From Gammaproteobacteria bacterium (GTDB lineage: Bacteria > Pseudomonadota > Gammaproteobacteria > Eutrophobiales > Eutrophobiaceae), in the NCBI GenBank assembly GCA_028281365.1, contig JANQJZ010000059.1, positions 1 to 54,681 on the forward strand: a stretch of 54,681 nt of DNA. Direction: 5' to 3'. Both the position numbers and the translations under genes were made by a program. Below are positions 20,361 through 28,327 of this stretch, in pieces (position 1 is the first letter of the stretch; the number at the start of each line of letters is the position of its first letter). The notes under the pieces are model-generated. The model ran no database searches. It was given only the letters and a program-made list of their open reading frames with translations, and had not been told where the DNA came from.

Positions 20361-21656
20361 ATGGAACTCGATCAACTTATCGAGCAAACAGCTGAACCGG
20401 ATGTTACTTCAAATCGTTTGCAAACATTACTTGATAATGAGCAGGCTGCTCGAATTATTAATTCTTTTACCGATGAAAAGAAGGCTGGATTAATTAAGGT
20501 AATCGGCGTTTCCCGGTTTTTATATCATTTCCTGAATAAGGAACCGGATTCATTACAGCTTATTGGAACGCCTTTCCAAGATACAATAGACAAACAAATT
20601 TTAGATGTCAGGGATTTAAGACAATATAAATATCGTTCGTTATTACAAATTGCATGGATGGATATATGTAATATATGTCCCTACGAAACAATTCTACATA
20701 GTCTAAGCAGTCTGGCTGATTCAATATTAATAGTTGCAAATCGACTTGTTACAAAGCCATCCAAAGATTTTATTCCGGATAATGATATTGCCATTATGGC
20801 ATTGGGTAAACTGGGCGCGAATGAATTAAATTTCAGTTCCGATGTTGACCTGATGTTTATTCTTGGTAGTGATGATGACAATAAGCAATCTGACAGACAT
20901 GAATATTATACTCAACACATTCGTCAATTTTGTCGTCTGTTAACAGAAAACAGTGAAGATGGATTTTTATATCGTGTTGATCTCAATCTAAGACCTTGGG
21001 GAAGGAGCGCGCCGTTAATTTTTTCTATTGATGATTATGAGGAATATTACCAGGCATCCAAGGAAGCCTGGGAGCGTATTGCCTGGTTACGTGGTCGTTT
21101 TGTTGCCGGATCTGTAGATATAGGCAATGAAATTATAAAAAAATTAATCCCGTTTGTATTTCATAAGACATTAAGCGCCGGGGATGTCGAACGATTCCTG
21201 AAAATAAAAAGTGATATGTTAGAGCAACGTGAAAAGGAAGGTCATTGGAATATTAAATTGGGTGAGGGTGGTATCAGGGATATTGAATTCTTTATTCACA
21301 TGTTACAAATCGTAAATGGCGCGTATCATCCATCATTACGTACTACCAATACGCTTGGATTGTTAACCCAGTTTGTCAATCTGGGCTTTATCAAACAGGA
21401 AGAACAAAAAGAATTAAAAGATAGTTATTTATTTTTACGTAAACTCGAAAATCGTCTGCAAATGATAGATGAACAACAAACACATCAACTGCCACATGAT
21501 AAAGATAGATTAAAACAAGTCGCCAGGATAATGGGATATGAAAACAGGAATATCGATGATGCTTATGCCGATTTCAATGATGATCTGATTTTGTATCAAC
21601 AGGTGGCCAGAAAATATTTTGAAACCTTGTTAACTGAAAACACGGAATACTCATGA
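20361..21656 (+). CDS. glnE: Glutamine synthetase adenylyltransferase, N-terminal (deadenylylase) half
   Basis: 431-aa protein equal to the N-terminal half of bifunctional GlnE. It carries the nucleotidyltransferase motif ALGKLGANELNFSSD with D161 and D163, the segment FLYRVDLNLRPWG, and the helical region LGEGGIRDIEFF. In E. coli this half removes AMP from glutamine synthetase when PII is uridylylated. The normal protein is ~950 aa in one chain. Here a stop codon falls between the two halves, and the next gene starts in an ATGA overlap. Catalytic residues look intact, so this is probably a genuine two-gene form rather than decay. Confidence 0.85.
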   Translation: MELDQLIEQTAEPDVTSNRLQTLLDNEQAARIINSFTDEKKAGLIKVIGVSRFLYHFLNKEPDSLQLIGTPFQDTIDKQILDVRDLRQYKYRSLLQIAWMDICNICPYETILHSLSSLADSILIVANRLVTKPSKDFIPDNDIAIMALGKLGANELNFSSDVDLMFILGSDDDNKQSDRHEYYTQHIRQFCRLLTENSEDGFLYRVDLNLRPWGRSAPLIFSIDDYEEYYQASKEAWERIAWLRGRFVAGSVDIGNEIIKKLIPFVFHKTLSAGDVERFLKIKSDMLEQREKEGHWNIKLGEGGIRDIEFFIHMLQIVNGAYHPSLRTTNTLGLLTQFVNLGFIKQEEQKELKDSYLFLRKLENRLQMIDEQQTHQLPHDKDRLKQVARIMGYENRNIDDAYADFNDDLILYQQVARKYFETLLTENTEYS

Positions 21657-22975
21657 GTCAAACCATGACTTTGGAAGAAACACTCATAAGAGTCTGGCAT
21701 AAGGATGCTGCAAGCAACAGTCTTGAACGTTGGCAAGAGCTTGCACAACAGGAGAACTGGAATATCTCCGATGACGTGTTATCTCGTATGACAATGGTAT
21801 TCGGTGCCAGTTGGTACTTCACTCGATTCTGTTTTTTCCGGGGTAGCAGGATTTTGCCCCTGTTTGCAGTAGAAAATTTATCAATTACCTCCATCGAATC
21901 ATCCCTGCAAGTATTGGAAAAATTCACTACGGAGTCTTCACTGGACGAAGCAGTAGAAAAATTAAGAATCAAAAAAAACGAAATTATGTTATCGATCCTG
22001 ATTTTACAACTATCCAATGTTATCAAACAGGAGCAGGCAGAAGAATTATTAACAAAACTTGCAGATGCTGTACTTATTGTCATGCATCATTTGTTTGGGC
22101 TGGATCAACTCGAAGATATTAAGTGTATTGTGCTCGGCATGGGACGATTTGCCGGTTATGAAATGAACTATGGTTCAGATCTGGATTTAATATTTATTGA
22201 AAAAATCAGCAAATCGAATAGTGATGCACATATTGGTAATAAGGTCAGAAAAATGTTGCGCTACATCTCAACTATGGATCCTTCAGGCGCACTATATGAG
22301 ATCGATATGCGACTCAGGCCACATGGAAGTTCGGGCGTACTGGTTACGCCATTACAAAGCTTTCTCAAATTTCATCGAGATGATCGTGAGATATGGGAAC
22401 GTCAGATGATGACACGTTGCCGGGTAATCGTGGGTGATAAAGCTTTATCTACACAGATTAAACAGGAAGTTTTAAATGATATTTATAATAAATATGAAAC
22501 GTCATATCTGGCAAAAGAGATTATGAAGGTACGTTTACTGGTGGAACAGGAATTAGCAGGGGGAATGGATAAAATAGAATTAAAGCGTGGTAAGGGTGGA
22601 GTAATGGATATAGATTTTCTAAGCCACTTTTTGCAACTGGCTTATGGTTCTGAACACACTCAACTACAGAACGCAAGCACAAGGACAGTGTTGAAAGAAT
22701 CAGCGAGTTTGAATTTAATAAATGAAAAAGCAGCAACGCTATTACTCAATGCCTATGATTTTTATAAAAAGAGTGAAGCTGCTTTACGGGTGTTTGATAT
22801 GAAGTCAATCAGCAAGGTTGATAAAGACATGAAATCTCTATTACCTTTGGCAAGAGCAACAGGATTTATTGATGAAGATGCTGATAAGGCAATTTCACAA
22901 TATCAGGATAAATTATTTCAATATCGTGAAGAAGTACGTCAGTTATTTAATTCAGTTATTGAAGACTCGATCTAG
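21653..22975 (+). CDS. glnE: Glutamine synthetase adenylyltransferase, C-terminal (adenylylase) half
   Basis: 440-aa protein equal to the C-terminal half of GlnE. It has the nucleotidyltransferase motif GMGRFAGYEMNYGSDLDLIF with D176 and D178, then LYEIDMRLRPHGSSG and the GGVMDIDFL helical region. In E. coli this half adenylylates glutamine synthetase in response to glutamine. The start ATG overlaps the previous stop (ATGA), which is typical of translational coupling and would give equal amounts of the two chains. Its 3' end overlaps the convergent putP by 20 nt. The sequence is more divergent than the first half. Confidence 0.82.
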   Translation: MSQTMTLEETLIRVWHKDAASNSLERWQELAQQENWNISDDVLSRMTMVFGASWYFTRFCFFRGSRILPLFAVENLSITSIESSLQVLEKFTTESSLDEAVEKLRIKKNEIMLSILILQLSNVIKQEQAEELLTKLADAVLIVMHHLFGLDQLEDIKCIVLGMGRFAGYEMNYGSDLDLIFIEKISKSNSDAHIGNKVRKMLRYISTMDPSGALYEIDMRLRPHGSSGVLVTPLQSFLKFHRDDREIWERQMMTRCRVIVGDKALSTQIKQEVLNDIYNKYETSYLAKEIMKVRLLVEQELAGGMDKIELKRGKGGVMDIDFLSHFLQLAYGSEHTQLQNASTRTVLKESASLNLINEKAATLLLNAYDFYKKSEAALRVFDMKSISKVDKDMKSLLPLARATGFIDEDADKAISQYQDKLFQYREEVRQLFNSVIEDSI

Positions 22976-24410
22976 TTTTAAATATCAATTGAACAATTAC
23001 AATACTGAACAATGCGATTAAAAAGCCGGGTACTAATTCATACAACTGGAAAACCGGATGTTGTGAATCAATATTTTTCCAGATTATCACTGTTAGACCA
23101 CCAGTAATCATGCCTGTGATGGCAGAACTTTTTTCCATATCTTTCCAGAATAGTGATAAAAGTATGACAGGTCCGAACGTTGCCCCAAAACCTGCCCAGG
23201 CATAAGCAACAAGGTCAAGCACATTACTATTTGCCTGCAGTGCCAGGACCAATGCAAACAAGGTAATAATGATTACAGTCGCCCTGCCTATCGTTACCAA
23301 ACTTGAATCAGCAACTTTATTTTTATTGAACAACTTGTAAATATCTTCTGTTAAGGCCGATGAAGCAACCAGTAATTGCGAGTCGGCTGTGCTCATGATC
23401 GCTGCGAGAATAGCGGCCAGGCAAATACCGGCAGGCAAGGGGTGTAATAACAGGTTTAATAATTCTATAAAAACTTTTTCGCTATCCCCACCTTGTAATT
23501 GACCGTCTAATAAAATGATGCCGGCAAAACCAATCAACAGTGCAGTAACTAACGTAAGAAATGTCCAGCCAAGGGCAATATTTCTGGCTGCAGGTATATT
23601 ATCGGCTGACTTTATTGCCATAAAACGTATCAAAATATGTGGTTGACCAAAATAACCGAGCCCCCAGCCCAGCAAAGAAATAATTCCTAATACACCTAAT
23701 GCCTCAGCAGAGATGCTGGTAAAAGCATTGGTTAACTCAGGATTAGCCGTAGTCATTGAAGCAAATAAAACATCAAGGCCTTGCACGTTATACACCGATA
23801 AAATTGCGACATAACTTAATGCCAGTGCCATCAATAAACCTTGTATCAAGTCAGTCCAGGAGACAGCAAAAAAACCGCCAAGACAGGTATAGATCAGTAT
23901 GGTGAAAGCGCCAATACATACAGCCCATGTATAAGACAAACCGAAAACGGATTCGAATAATTTACCTCCGGCAACGAGCCCGGAACTGGTGTAAAACAGA
24001 TAAAACAATAAAATAAATATTGCAGAGATAATACGTAAAGCATGACTATTATCGTTAAAACGGTATTCCAGATATTCCGGCAAGGTCAGGGCATTGTTTA
24101 ATCTTTCTGAATCAATTCGCAAACGAGGTGCAACCCAGAACCAGTTTAGGCAGGTACCAATAAACAAACCAATAGCGATCCAGATTGCTTCCATTCCAGC
24201 CAAATAGGCATAACCCGGTAAACCTAATAGTAACCAACCGCTCATATCTGATGCGCCGGCACTAATTGCTGTTGTCCAGTTCCCGAGCTTTCTGCCGCCT
24301 AATATGTAATCGGAAAAATCATGTGTACTGCGCCAGGCTTTCCAGCCGATATAAAAGATCAATAACAGGTAGGCAATAAATGCTGAAAAGATTATGGCAT
24401 GTTCAGTCAT
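22956..24410 (-). CDS. putP: Sodium/proline symporter
   Basis: 484-aa inner-membrane transporter of the sodium:solute symporter family with about 12-13 hydrophobic segments. The signature SAGASDMSGWLLLGLPG matches PutP specifically, and GYFGQPHILIRFMA is also characteristic. It imports proline with Na+ for nutrition or osmoprotection. It starts 3 nt after the SPL-like radical SAM gene and is last in a five-gene minus-strand operon. No putA was seen in the window. Confidence 0.93.
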   Translation of the reverse strand: MTEHAIIFSAFIAYLLLIFYIGWKAWRSTHDFSDYILGGRKLGNWTTAISAGASDMSGWLLLGLPGYAYLAGMEAIWIAIGLFIGTCLNWFWVAPRLRIDSERLNNALTLPEYLEYRFNDNSHALRIISAIFILLFYLFYTSSGLVAGGKLFESVFGLSYTWAVCIGAFTILIYTCLGGFFAVSWTDLIQGLLMALALSYVAILSVYNVQGLDVLFASMTTANPELTNAFTSISAEALGVLGIISLLGWGLGYFGQPHILIRFMAIKSADNIPAARNIALGWTFLTLVTALLIGFAGIILLDGQLQGGDSEKVFIELLNLLLHPLPAGICLAAILAAIMSTADSQLLVASSALTEDIYKLFNKNKVADSSLVTIGRATVIIITLFALVLALQANSNVLDLVAYAWAGFGATFGPVILLSLFWKDMEKSSAITGMITGGLTVIIWKNIDSQHPVFQLYELVPGFLIALFSIVIVQLIFKTRSSLQ

Positions 24411-24413
24411 TAT

Positions 24414-25412
24414 TTATATTGAGTCATGACAAGGAAAAAATTTTTCTATTGGTATATATTGGGTAATTATTTTTTTACAGTAATCGAGCATGTCATTACG
24501 AAGTTCAGCAGGATAACTTATCATGTTTTCCTGTTCCGATAACGGCGATGATAACAGTTTTTCATCCGGATAAAGTTTTTCAAGTTTTCGAAAGTAATCT
24601 TTTGGTAATCGAAAGCTGCCGAGGCTGACTGAATGAGTTGATTCAGGATCAAGGTTTGTAAAAACAGTTTTAAATAAAGCCTCGTATTCGACGTCATAGT
24701 CTTTGGTGTAAATCAACGGATCAAATCGTAGTCCAATCTGCCAACCTGCTTGCTGGAGATCTAAAATAGCCTGTATTCGTTTTTCGACAGAAGGCGTTTT
24801 ATGCTCCAGCGCACTGGCGATCCTGTCAGGTGTAAAGCTAAAAGCAATAATGCAGTTTTGAATCGGCTTTCTTTTTAATAATGATCGAATCTGTGTGCTT
24901 TTGGTGCGCAATTCCAGCAAGGCATGTTTGTTTTTTTCAAAGAAGGGTAAAAATTCACTGGTAAAGTCAGTCACTGGATCAAGAGCCAGGCTATCACAAT
25001 CGTAACCGGAAAATATGTGAACAGCCTGGCCCTTATGCTGATTAGTAACTGATTGTAATTCTTCAAGAAAGTCCTCGTAATTTACGAATAAAACATAATG
25101 AGCAGATTGAAACATACCTTGCAGGAAACAATAACGGCAGTCATATAAGCAATTCAGCATATGCGAGAAATAATAATTATGTTCCGCGCCAATACCGTAT
25201 TGTTTTGGTGTAGGTAAAATGAACCCTTTATGTTTTCTGGCAAGAATTAATGCCGGTTGTTTTTTTTGTAAACGAAAGTTTTGTGATTTTCGATTAAATA
25301 TCTCACCATAGCGTTTGCAAGTAATTTTATCTGCATCGGGAAAACGTTCGAGGATCTTGAATGTACGCGGATGAGTAGCAACTTCTTCCTCAATGTATAT
25401 GGTACTAATCAT
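24414..25412 (-). CDS. Spore photoproduct lyase-like radical SAM protein
   Basis: 332-aa radical SAM enzyme with Cys88, Cys92 and Cys95 in CLYDCRYC, the C-x3-C-x2-C 4Fe-4S/SAM motif, in the context typical of the SPL family (CxxxCxYCFLQ). True SPL repairs thymine photodimers in spores, but this organism shows no sign of sporulation. The region that carries the hydrogen-donating Cys in Bacillus SplB reads SGYDCDS here, with Cys shifted by about two positions by eye alignment, so the chemistry may differ. The preferred start overlaps the previous stop by 8 nt; a start seven codons earlier is possible. Confidence 0.82.
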   Translation of the reverse strand: MISTIYIEEEVATHPRTFKILERFPDADKITCKRYGEIFNRKSQNFRLQKKQPALILARKHKGFILPTPKQYGIGAEHNYYFSHMLNCLYDCRYCFLQGMFQSAHYVLFVNYEDFLEELQSVTNQHKGQAVHIFSGYDCDSLALDPVTDFTSEFLPFFEKNKHALLELRTKSTQIRSLLKRKPIQNCIIAFSFTPDRIASALEHKTPSVEKRIQAILDLQQAGWQIGLRFDPLIYTKDYDVEYEALFKTVFTNLDPESTHSVSLGSFRLPKDYFRKLEKLYPDEKLLSSPLSEQENMISYPAELRNDMLDYCKKIITQYIPIEKFFPCHDSI

Positions 25413-26223
25413 AGATGACAAACCCGGTCTCATTTATGGTGGTTTGTAAATGACGCAAAACACTTTTGCCAGAAGTTAATTTATTCGCAGATTTTATGAC
25501 GTCTTTATCAGGCAACCGCTTGGACCACTGTCTTAATAAGCGTTCTAATTGTATTCTTTCAGTTGCAGTAAAGTGCCATTTATCTATAAAAGCCTGGTAA
25601 CATGATGGTGCTCGACTAATAGAATACAATTCATTAGATAAGACTTTCAGTTTATCAATAATGCCGGTGATTACATCAAGATTTTTAATAAGCAGATCTT
25701 TGACCATTGTTTTATTGATATATTCAGTGGGCTGTTGATCATTATCCGAAACTATCTTGAGGCAATGGATCAACTCGCTGGTTCCAAGTCTTGTTGCAAT
25801 TGAATAAAAACCGGCTGCCTCCATATCATATAACGCCTGCTCATAATCTGTTGAAGGTTCACTTACGGTGATTAATGCTTCAGTTTTACACGATGGTTGA
25901 AACAAGATCTGTGGATACCAACATGATAAATCCTTGTTATCTGTAATCTTGTTTACCAAACAGACTTCACCAATAGCCATTGACTTATGTCCAGCAACCC
26001 CGACATTTAACCAGACATCACTAGCAGAAGTTTCCAGATTGGCATGATGATAGGTAACAGCAGAAGCAGCGTTGAGTTTCCCGATACCGGTAATGGTTAA
26101 AGTGACCTGTTTGTCTTCAGATTGAAATATTCGGAATAGATCAAATTGTCTTAGTTCGGATAATTGGTACTGATTTATAAGTGGTTCAGCCTCACAATAG
26201 AGGGCACAAAACAGATTTATCAT
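25405..26223 (-). CDS. Nucleoside phosphorylase-like protein
   Basis: 272-aa protein whose N-terminal ~190 residues have the nucleosidase/phosphorylase (PNP/UDP) fold pattern: LTITGIGKLNAASA, LNVGVAGH and DMEAAGFYSIA. The last corresponds to the purine-ribose binding motif MEAA of MTA/SAH nucleosidases. The C-terminal ~80 residues are basic and lack a recognizable domain. The substrate is unknown. It sits immediately upstream of, and overlaps, the SPL-like radical SAM gene, which suggests that the two act on a shared nucleoside or lesion-derived compound (inference). Confidence 0.75.
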   Translation of the reverse strand: MINLFCALYCEAEPLINQYQLSELRQFDLFRIFQSEDKQVTLTITGIGKLNAASAVTYHHANLETSASDVWLNVGVAGHKSMAIGEVCLVNKITDNKDLSCWYPQILFQPSCKTEALITVSEPSTDYEQALYDMEAAGFYSIATRLGTSELIHCLKIVSDNDQQPTEYINKTMVKDLLIKNLDVITGIIDKLKVLSNELYSISRAPSCYQAFIDKWHFTATERIQLERLLRQWSKRLPDKDVIKSANKLTSGKSVLRHLQTTINETGFVIYD

Positions 26224-26228
26224 ACTGA

Positions 26229-26684
26229 TTATTTCAATTGTTCAGCTTTCGAAACGCATTCGTCGATGAAAGTCTGCCAGGTTTCATCCGGTTGCCAGAT
26301 AGCAAGCATGTCCTGTTTGGCAGTTTCATCATCTTTTCCCTGTTTGATGACCCGGTATAAATAAACAAAACTTGAAACTCGCCAGTTGTAGGCACAATGG
26401 ACGAGAGTGTTTTTATCATTATGCTCATCCATTGCTTTAAAGAATAATTCCAGATCAGCAATATCCGGTTTCTTAAAATCCACAGGAATATGAATATAGT
26501 GCATCTCGTTTTCCTGCACGACTTGTGCTTCATTGATTATCGCATTGGGAGAATCAGCCCGTGCAAGATTAATAACAATTTCAATACCGGAATCCTTGAT
26601 CATTTTAAAATCTGCTTCAGTCGGCTGGGCTGCGGTGTGCAGCGTTTTGGAAATCTGACGATAATTTTTAATCTTATCAAGCAT
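26229..26684 (-). CDS. Protein tyrosine phosphatase-like protein
   Basis: 151-aa small protein with a phosphatase-type P-loop: His96-Cys97 and Arg102 in VHCAYNWRVS. The spacing is C-x4-R, one residue shorter than the canonical C-x5-R, as in some DUF442/BLH-type relatives. Asp residues in the preceding strand (PVDFKKPD) could serve as general acid. It lies 5 nt from both flanking operon genes. The substrate is unknown. Confidence 0.72.
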   Translation of the reverse strand: MLDKIKNYRQISKTLHTAAQPTEADFKMIKDSGIEIVINLARADSPNAIINEAQVVQENEMHYIHIPVDFKKPDIADLELFFKAMDEHNDKNTLVHCAYNWRVSSFVYLYRVIKQGKDDETAKQDMLAIWQPDETWQTFIDECVSKAEQLK

Positions 26685-26689
26685 GTGAT

Positions 26690-27511
26690 CTAGCTATATT
26701 TTGATAACAGCGATTCAAATTGTTGACTGTATTCACTAGTACCATGTTTTTCTGAACCTTTAAGAAAGATAACTATTTTATCAAGCATCATTGTTATAGC
26801 AGCCTGTCGATTGTCTTCATTCAACTCATTTGACTCGATACTTTTTTGCAAAGCAAGTATACGAAATCGATCCATACCCCAATGTTGACGTGACAACTGG
26901 TCATTATGTCCTCCGTATTTATTAGTTAAAGCTTTATCAATAAATAAAACCGGATATTTACAACAAATACGGAGCCACATGTCATAATCTTCACAAGCCG
27001 GCAAGTTTTCATCAAACAAACCGACATCATCAAAGACTGTTTTATGAATCATAACAGAAGAAGGTGAAATTGCGCATAAAGGCAGGCAATGTTGGTAAAT
27101 AAAACCACCGCGTTTTTCATGTTTTTTCCCCTGGTTTAATAGCGCACCATCGCGGTACCAGGTTTCATTGGTATGACAGATTAAATAATCCGGTTCTTTA
27201 GTAAGTGCCTCTATTTGTTGTTGAAGTTTATCTGTTTCCCAACTGTCATCAGAGTCAAGCAAACAAATCCAGTCATATTTTGAAGTTTTAATGCCGTTAT
27301 TTCTTGCAGCACTCACCCCTTGATTATCTTGTTGAATAAATACGATTTGTGGATATTGATCTTTTATTAATTGTCGTGTGTTGTCAGTCGACCCATCATC
27401 TACAACGATAATTTCATCAGCCTGGTGTGATTGGGCTAATACAGAATCTATCGCCCTGGGTAATAATGTTGCACGGTTAAATGATGGAATAACAACTGAG
27501 ATATTAAACAT
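26690..27511 (-). CDS. Family 2 glycosyltransferase
   Basis: 273-aa GT-A fold transferase. It starts with VVIPSFNRATLLPRAIDSVL, then VVDDGSTDNT (nucleotide-sugar site) and LDSDDSWE (DxD metal site). The acceptor-side region carries PACEDYDMWLR with the likely catalytic acidic pair. There are no membrane segments. It is first in the tight minus-strand operon leading to the SPL-like protein and putP. The sugar and acceptor cannot be told from sequence. Confidence 0.88.
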   Translation of the reverse strand: MFNISVVIPSFNRATLLPRAIDSVLAQSHQADEIIVVDDGSTDNTRQLIKDQYPQIVFIQQDNQGVSAARNNGIKTSKYDWICLLDSDDSWETDKLQQQIEALTKEPDYLICHTNETWYRDGALLNQGKKHEKRGGFIYQHCLPLCAISPSSVMIHKTVFDDVGLFDENLPACEDYDMWLRICCKYPVLFIDKALTNKYGGHNDQLSRQHWGMDRFRILALQKSIESNELNEDNRQAAITMMLDKIVIFLKGSEKHGTSEYSQQFESLLSKYS

Positions 27512-27571: not shown

Positions 27572-28327
27572 ATGGAACGTCTTAAAGATAAAGTAGCTGT
27601 GATAACCGGTGCTAGTAGTGGTATTGGTCGGAGAATAGCAGAAGCATTTGCTCATGAAGGCGCGAGAGTTGTCGTAAATTATTTAAAGTCCAGGGACAGT
27701 GCAGAAGCTGTTGTCGAGAGTATTAGCAAAAAGGGTGGTAAGGCGGTCGCTATACAGGCGGACATGGGTAAAAAAGAGGACATAGCTCAACTTATTCAAT
27801 CCACAATTTCTGAATTTGGTCAGATCGATATCTGGGTCAATAATGCCGGTGCCGATATTCTTACGGGTAGCGGAGCTGAAGCAGACTTAACAGAAAAGCT
27901 GGAGCACCTGGTAGAAGTCGATCTAAAAGGCACTATGAATGCCTGTTGGTCGATTACACCGATCATGCAAGAACAGGGTAAAGGTGTAATCATTAATATG
28001 GGTTGGGATTTATCAATACATGGTTTTGAAGGTAGTAATCCGCAAATCTTTGCCGCTAGCAAGGCAGGCGTATTAGGTTTTACTCGTTCACTTGCAAAAT
28101 CAGTCGGTCCTGAGATTCGTGTCAATATGGTTGCACCAGGCTGGATAGAAACAGCCTTTGCCGATGAACATATGAGTGATGATTATTATCAGGCGCGTAT
28201 CAGCGAAATTCCTTTGGGTCGTTTTGGTAAACCGGAAGATGTAGCAACAGCAGCCGTATTTTTAGCATCTGACGACGCAGCGTATATTACCGGTGAAGCA
28301 ATCAAGATAAATGGAGGACTTGTTTAA
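27572..28327 (+). CDS. Short-chain dehydrogenase/reductase family protein lacking catalytic Ser and Tyr
   Basis: 251-aa Rossmann-fold SDR. The cofactor motif TGASSGIG and the NNAG motif are present. The usual active-site YxxxK reads FAASK, with Phe160 in place of Tyr and Lys164 kept. The strand that normally ends in the catalytic Ser reads INMGWD. Classical reduction or oxidation therefore looks impaired; it could be a pseudoenzyme, a cofactor-binding partner, or use other chemistry. The C-terminus (GEAIKINGG) is normal. The ORF ends inside the next gene's leader, so the two are probably co-expressed with the PcaC-like gene. Confidence 0.82.
   Translation: MERLKDKVAVITGASSGIGRRIAEAFAHEGARVVVNYLKSRDSAEAVVESISKKGGKAVAIQADMGKKEDIAQLIQSTISEFGQIDIWVNNAGADILTGSGAEADLTEKLEHLVEVDLKGTMNACWSITPIMQEQGKGVIINMGWDLSIHGFEGSNPQIFAASKAGVLGFTRSLAKSVGPEIRVNMVAPGWIETAFADEHMSDDYYQARISEIPLGRFGKPEDVATAAVFLASDDAAYITGEAIKINGGLV

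Follow-up and report, generated by a model that had tools for sequence, protein, structure and literature searches.

A spore photoproduct lyase-fold radical SAM protein co-inherited with an MTAN-type nucleosidase and a GT2 glycosyltransferase in Gammaproteobacteria

A gene run on a gammaproteobacterial contig

The window analyzed here is a 54,681-nt stretch of DNA, contig JANQJZ010000059.1 (forward strand, positions 1 to 54,681) of assembly GCA_028281365.1, from a gammaproteobacterium of the family Eutrophobiaceae whose genome (G000) spans 2.2 Mb in 76 contigs and is rated 100% complete. It carries a tight run of five genes, all on the minus strand. The run opens with a GT2 glycosyltransferase (GT; 273 aa, positions 26690–27511, PF00535 E 2e-35), followed after 5 nt by a dual-specificity (DSP)-type phosphatase (151 aa, 26229–26684, PF22741 E 1.8e-9) and after another 5 nt by a nucleosidase-like protein that we call NPL (272 aa, 25405–26223). 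NPL overlaps SPLL, a radical S-adenosylmethionine (SAM) protein with the fold of spore photoproduct lyase (SPL) (339 aa, 24414–25433, PF20903 E 1.3e-21), and 3 nt further on lies putP, encoding a sodium/proline symporter (22956–24410, TIGR02121 624 bits, above cut-off). The overlap is 29 nt with the first ATG of SPLL (25433) and 8 nt with an internal ATG at 25412, which gives a protein of 332 aa and lies near the start of most relatives' proteins. A sequence-only reading of the window had described this run with spacings of 5, 5, −8 and 3 nt, and the coordinates agree, −8 corresponding to the SPLL start at 25412.

SPLL has the fold of SPL without that enzyme's catalytic residues. Its AlphaFold model (mean pLDDT 89.1, pTM 0.88) aligns with SPL structure 4fhc over nearly its whole length (VIA Z 34.1, rmsd 2.5, 322 residues), and the next families among the matches listed stand at Z ~15. 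Across the 73 sequences of our SPLL profile (A1) the CxxxCxxC [4Fe-4S]/SAM motif shared with SPL (TIGR04070/PF20903) is invariant (73/73; C95, C99 and C102 in the window, 25128–25151). Conversely, the hydrogen-donor Cys140 of SPL is replaced by tyrosine in 73/73 (Tyr144 in the window, codon 25002–25004), the relay Tyr98 corresponds to Phe103 in the window's protein and is Phe in at least 90% of the sequences (Tyr is retained in L107), and the window's SPLL reaches 98.1 bits where TIGR04070, the SPL equivalog model, requires 400. According to the excerpted text of PMC3742179, this Cys (C140 Gt/C141 Bs) and Tyr (Y98 Gt/Y99 Bs) serve to quench the substrate radical and to regenerate SAM, and the C141A and Y99F enzymes use about one SAM per repair. 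Because both residues are replaced, SPLL is not expected to run the known SPL chemistry and should consume SAM.

These replacements bear directly on the lesion handling that the sequence-only reading had proposed. Spelled out, SPLL would reverse a lesion such as a photoproduct, and NPL would deal with the released base or nucleoside. SPL is indeed the nearest fold, and, judging from the alignment, the lost hydrogen donor might have a substitute in Tyr144 or in Cys146, which is nearly invariant. However, the donor Cys and relay Tyr are replaced both in SPLL and in the aligned rows of a second class of SPL relatives (SPL2, below), which have Gln at the Cys140 position in 10/10 rows (one gene present twice), and the recurrent partners of SPLL are a glycosyltransferase and carbonyl reductases. 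None of the recurrent neighbors that were identified, a minority of all neighbors being annotated, is a repair gene. Other SplB-like proteins are linked to SOS genes in the excerpted text of PMC3765255. We consider lesion repair highly improbable for this family.

NPL clearly has the fold of an MTAN/futalosine-hydrolase-type nucleosidase. Compared over residues 1–200, with the C-terminal domain barely included, its AlphaFold model (mean pLDDT 95.1, pTM 0.84) matches MTAN and futalosine hydrolase chains at VIA Z 20.4–22.7 across the 50 matches listed, a fold it has in common with the H. pylori and C. trachomatis enzymes. Residues E11, E135, S159 and D160 are invariant in the 69 sequences of the NPL profile (A2); among another 26 loci, 25 retain them and L124 does not. 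They include the Glu/Glu/Asp set found in MTA/SAH nucleosidase (Pfs/MTAN; TIGR01704, NF004079), and we take the Glu, Met-Glu and Ser-Asp residues to be catalytic. Profile matches run in the same direction at low scores: futalosine hydrolase TIGR03664 is the most frequent NCBIfam match (68/69 members at E <= 0.01) and PRK05584 MTAN is matched by 56/69, while the window's NPL falls far under the cut-offs of the nucleosidase profiles (26.5 bits versus 124.7 for TIGR03664, 20.9 versus 169 for NF004079) and reaches 22.8 bits against PF01048, under its gathering score of 25.1. By profile NPL is a PNP-superfamily protein below cut-off; by its modeled structure it is an MTAN-type nucleosidase, with the catalytic residues intact.

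Co-inheritance of the radical SAM protein, nucleosidase and glycosyltransferase

An SPL-fold radical SAM protein is inherited along with NPL and GT2, whether or not the genes are linked. We searched 369 gammaproteobacterial genomes with both the SPLL and NPL profiles, counting as strong those NPL matches with E below 1e-40. SPL relatives and NPL occur together in 58 genomes, SPL occurs alone in 6, NPL alone in none, and 305 genomes have neither (64 with SPL and 58 with strong NPL in all; P = 2.6e-61, Fisher's test, with no phylogenetic correction). In another 16 genomes the NPL matches cover just the N-terminal part, at E values between 1e-10 and 1e-5; we read these as ordinary MTANs and did not count them. 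The SPLL-type family itself is present in 50/369 genomes (49 at E <= 1e-140 plus a fragment in G304). Among 58 relatives of the window's genome the pattern recurs, with 27 carrying both (28 with SPL, 27 with strong NPL), 1 SPL only, 0 NPL only and 30 neither, and the two genes vary together within genera g8, g11, g13 and g14. In G352 two SPLL and two NPL genes are arranged as two adjacent pairs. Across a phylum set of 398 genomes including the window's, NPL (E <= 1e-15) was found in G000 alone; SPL matched there too, and weakly at two other places. SPL without NPL occurs in G095, which is 82% complete, and in G015 (SPL2), which is 88% complete. The SPL-only genomes further include G087 and G329, whose NPL is degenerate, and G111, G238 and G340, which have a third SPL class (below).

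Linkage itself varies. Among 80 SPLL loci on genome contigs, SPLL adjoins NPL in 59. The 21 non-adjacent loci come mostly from genomes titled as methanotrophs, and NPL lies elsewhere in 13 of the 14 such genomes checked (the miss is G409), so the co-occurrence does not depend on operon hitch-hiking. In 4 of 10 fetched loci of this unlinked type NPL adjoins GT (L128, L129, L130, L135). A GT orthologue (profile A4, E <= 1e-50) is present in 25/27 NPL-containing relatives (the misses are G024 and G025) and in 0/31 relatives lacking NPL. By sequence the closest solved chains to GT2 are those of chondroitin synthase (2z87/2z86, E 3e-42). The sequence-only reading had proposed that the SPL-like and phosphorylase-like genes form a pair with a shared phylogenetic profile, and that the glycosyltransferase might work with them; rather than lying apart in most relatives, the pair is adjacent in most loci, every strong-NPL genome (58/58) has an SPL relative, and the glycosyltransferase belongs with the pair.

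The radical SAM partner is exchangeable. SPL2, a distant SPL relative of 411–476 aa, occurs in some genomes without SPLL, and these genomes keep a GT-NPL-SDR cassette (SDR, short-chain reductase) or GT-NPL (L111, L113, L115, L119, L147, L149, L154–L158), while in G133 NPL is alone at its locus (L117). SPL2 can replace SPLL. The replacement is accompanied by a change in NPL itself, whose C-terminal helical domain (residues ~200–272, 25408–25626, minus strand) is tied to the SPLL class. Class-wide, NPL reaches at least profile position 262 in 47/47 NPL-containing SPLL genomes and ends at or before position 221 in 11/11 SPL2-only genomes, the class of G399 and G304 being judged from fragments. 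Among fetched loci, NPL is of the long form in 109/109 cases from SPLL genomes (some of them second copies of one place) and of the short form in 12/13 from SPL2-only genomes, with G018 the exception; G005 and G022 have both SPLL and SPL2, and a long NPL. Families f1, f10, f43, f111 and f154 each hold both the SPLL/long and SPL2/short states, and within a single genus GT-NPL-SPLL-SDR in one of the genomes G394 and G299 faces GT-NPL-SDR in the other, with SPLL and the NPL tail both lost.

Most simply, the C-terminal domain of NPL would be there for SPLL, probably as a docking device. SPL2 for its part has an additional helical region at its N-terminus, which aligns with the NPL C-terminus at an hhalign probability of 10% (score 21.4, P 0.003); none of 40 column shuffles reaches this score (best 15.6), and the reversed control gives 12.4. 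This alignment is no more than suggestive of a helical domain common to the two proteins.

Variable neighbors of the module

The gene directly after SPLL varies among the 80 loci: it is SDR-A in 56, putP in 5, an aldo/keto reductase in 3, Dus (tRNA-dihydrouridine synthase) in 2, none of these in 11 and a contig end in 3, with Pfam confirming one of the three aldo/keto reductases and one Dus (L103). Within the relatives searched, no member of the window's family has SDR-A. We considered an SDR as an obligate partner and rejected it, as the cassette SDR, frequent as it is across loci, is found in 1/58 relatives (E <= 1e-50). The window does contain another short-chain reductase, SDR-B (27572–28327, plus strand), which adjoins GT and is divergent from it, an arrangement seen in 9/80 loci (L031–L035, L037–L040). 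It is possible that SDR-B stands in for the cassette SDR that the window's genome lacks.

The phosphatase and putP belong to the surroundings of the module. The phosphatase (cluster c4) is found in 22 loci, mostly of the window's lineage and in some lineages only, and is not core; the phosphorylated product suggested by the sequence-only reading consequently finds no support beyond the window's lineage. putP adjoins SPLL in families f1 and f12, and we rejected it as a core partner in view of its few occurrences directly downstream of SPLL, which mark it as a local addition. It also stands beside SPL2 in G383 (L114:7624–9072) and beside NPL in G018 (L151:4480–5928), and appears in L018. In the window putP overlaps the 3′ end of a convergent open reading frame, the second of two plus-strand frames (20361–21656 and 21653–22975, overlapping by 4 nt) that correspond to the N- and C-terminal parts of glutamine synthetase adenylyltransferase (GlnE, NF008292). 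Two frames of similar size occur in L032, L033 and L034, which argues for a real split rather than a sequencing error. Elsewhere proC adjoins SPLL, in L120 by Pfam and in L169 by eye.

Some neighbors concern RNA. At two loci (L103:4908–5870 and L105:8996–9952) Dus and the end of SPLL overlap, and at a third the GT-NPL-SDR cassette is followed by trmO (L115:5313–6035), so that a link to tRNA modification is possible. One could accordingly imagine hypermodification of tRNA or another RNA, with the SPL-fold enzyme acting on a flipped-out nucleoside that GT2 and the reductase would then elaborate. SPL binds nucleic acid, and SPLL and GT are better conserved than NPL (mean column identity 60%, 57% and 36%, over partly different sequence sets), both of which fit this idea. 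However, the link appears in two kinds of locus only, L103 and L105 share neighbors and look related, and the remaining neighbors vary widely. We regard RNA modification as improbable.

A candidate pathway and its meaning

Two known systems pair a radical SAM enzyme with a nucleosidase of this superfamily. In futalosine-dependent menaquinone synthesis, MqnE adenosylates its substrate and MqnB or an MTAN then removes the base. NPL shares the fold of futalosine hydrolase/MTAN and has futalosine hydrolase as its most frequent NCBIfam match, and differs in its extra C-terminal domain; SPLL is much nearer to SPL (Z 34) than to MqnE (Z 13). In the bacteriohopanepolyol pathway, according to the excerpted text of PMC12583986, HpnH and then HpnG act, conversion to bacteriohopanetetrol follows and a glycosyltransferase comes next, the reductase not yet being established. 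The HpnH-HpnG-HpnI system thus resembles our module in combining a radical SAM enzyme, a PNP-superfamily nucleosidase, carbonyl reduction and a glycosyltransferase, and in the proposed order of steps. The radical SAM enzyme here has the SPL fold, however, and the HpnG profile is matched by 1/69 NPLs (E 1.2e-4); the likeness is one of analogy.

A hopanoid as the general substrate was considered and rejected. Squalene-hopene cyclase is commoner in relatives with NPL than in those without it (22/27 versus 11/31, Fisher's test P = 5e-4), a difference that favors a connection, but within the window's family the figures are 21/24 versus 10/13 (counted by hand), and there is no match to the cyclase (TIGR01507) in G000 or in four further NPL-containing genomes (G020, G022, G037 and G045; G020, like G000, is 100% complete). 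Hopene is thus not the acceptor in G000, where the cyclase has no match.

Our best model, which we put forward tentatively and with somewhat less than even confidence, is that SPLL adenosylates an acceptor, NPL removes adenine, and a carbonyl reductase and GT2 follow. SPLL would consume SAM and add the 5′-deoxyadenosyl radical to a C=C bond or similar acceptor, and NPL, docked to SPLL through its C-terminal domain, would hydrolyze the bond between adenine and ribose in the adduct. An SDR or aldo/keto reductase would reduce the 5-substituted 5-deoxyribose released in this way, and GT2 would add a sugar.

The choice between this model and a simpler one turns on what NPL cleaves. Radical SAM enzymes that abstract hydrogen release 5′-deoxyadenosine, and NPL may merely clear it, as a 5′-deoxyadenosine nucleosidase docked to a hydrogen-abstracting SPL-like enzyme, with GT and the reductase acting elsewhere on the product. 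The MTAN-type fold and catalytic residues of NPL would suit that role. In addition, given the excerpted text of PMC3742179, loss of the SPL relay would make SPLL release 5′-deoxyadenosine at every turnover. A different expectation concerns genomic context: other radical SAM enzymes are expected in such genomes, but SPL is the only one to which NPL is tied. There is also no trade-off with general scavengers, and we rejected NPL as a replacement for Pfs or MTAP, finding no complementarity with either: MTAP matches (E <= 1e-10) occur in 21/27 relatives with NPL and 20/31 without it (P = 0.39), and Pfs (TIGR01704) is over cut-off in 1/58 relatives and at E <= 1e-10 in 3/58. That NPL replaces no general scavenger favors a specific adduct, and a nucleosidase so strictly tied to SPL, with no trade-off against MTAP, most likely acts on the SPL protein's own product. 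We hold 5′-deoxyadenosine clearing, the main rival, to be only slightly less likely, and keep adenosylation of an acceptor as the best model.

Several observations weigh against acceptor adenosylation as we have drawn it. G087 and G329 retain SPLL, GT and the C-terminal domain of NPL but have a nucleosidase domain that can no longer be recognized, so nucleosidase activity is dispensable in these genomes; such decay is expected under 5′-deoxyadenosine clearing if another enzyme substitutes. SPLL is structurally distant from MqnE. A third SPL class (L122:6815–7936, 373 aa, 32% identity to the nearest SPLL), which adjoins an aldo/keto reductase in a genome with no NPL match, is present without NPL in G111, G238 and G340, with the reductase adjacent in G238. 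Finally, the reductase step is unevenly represented: the single relative with the cassette SDR (G045) is a genome of another family, G000 lacks this SDR at the same threshold, and the loci with Dus, putP or none of the sought genes after SPLL show neither SDR-A nor the aldo/keto reductase in that place.

A broader version of the adenosylation proposal would describe the whole family. An SPL-fold enzyme, having lost photoproduct-lyase chemistry, would transfer the 5′-deoxyadenosyl group of SAM to an acceptor and hand the adduct to a docked nucleosidase, the outcome being an appendage that resembles ribitol and is glycosylated. Docking would rely on a domain of the nucleosidase where SPLL is the partner and perhaps on one of the radical SAM protein itself where SPL2 is, the two radical SAM classes replacing one another in evolution. 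Taken in its entirety, we judge this version unlikely.

The component proteins all come from known superfamilies. Among the matches listed from the open-licence PMC literature, judged by titles and abstract openings, we found no description of the module. Its carriers are mostly uncultured gammaproteobacteria, including, by record titles, methanotrophs and invertebrate symbionts; SPLL is also present in records titled Methylomonas (L041 and L053/L062), all of them MAGs. The make-up of the module favors biosynthesis over DNA repair, which removes a misleading label (spore photoproduct lyase, DNA repair) from this radical SAM family, names its partners and provides a testable chemistry. If acceptor adenosylation is true, the family would add to the natural reactions in which SAM donates a 5′-deoxyadenosyl group and would point to an as yet unseen glycosylated metabolite or macromolecule modification.

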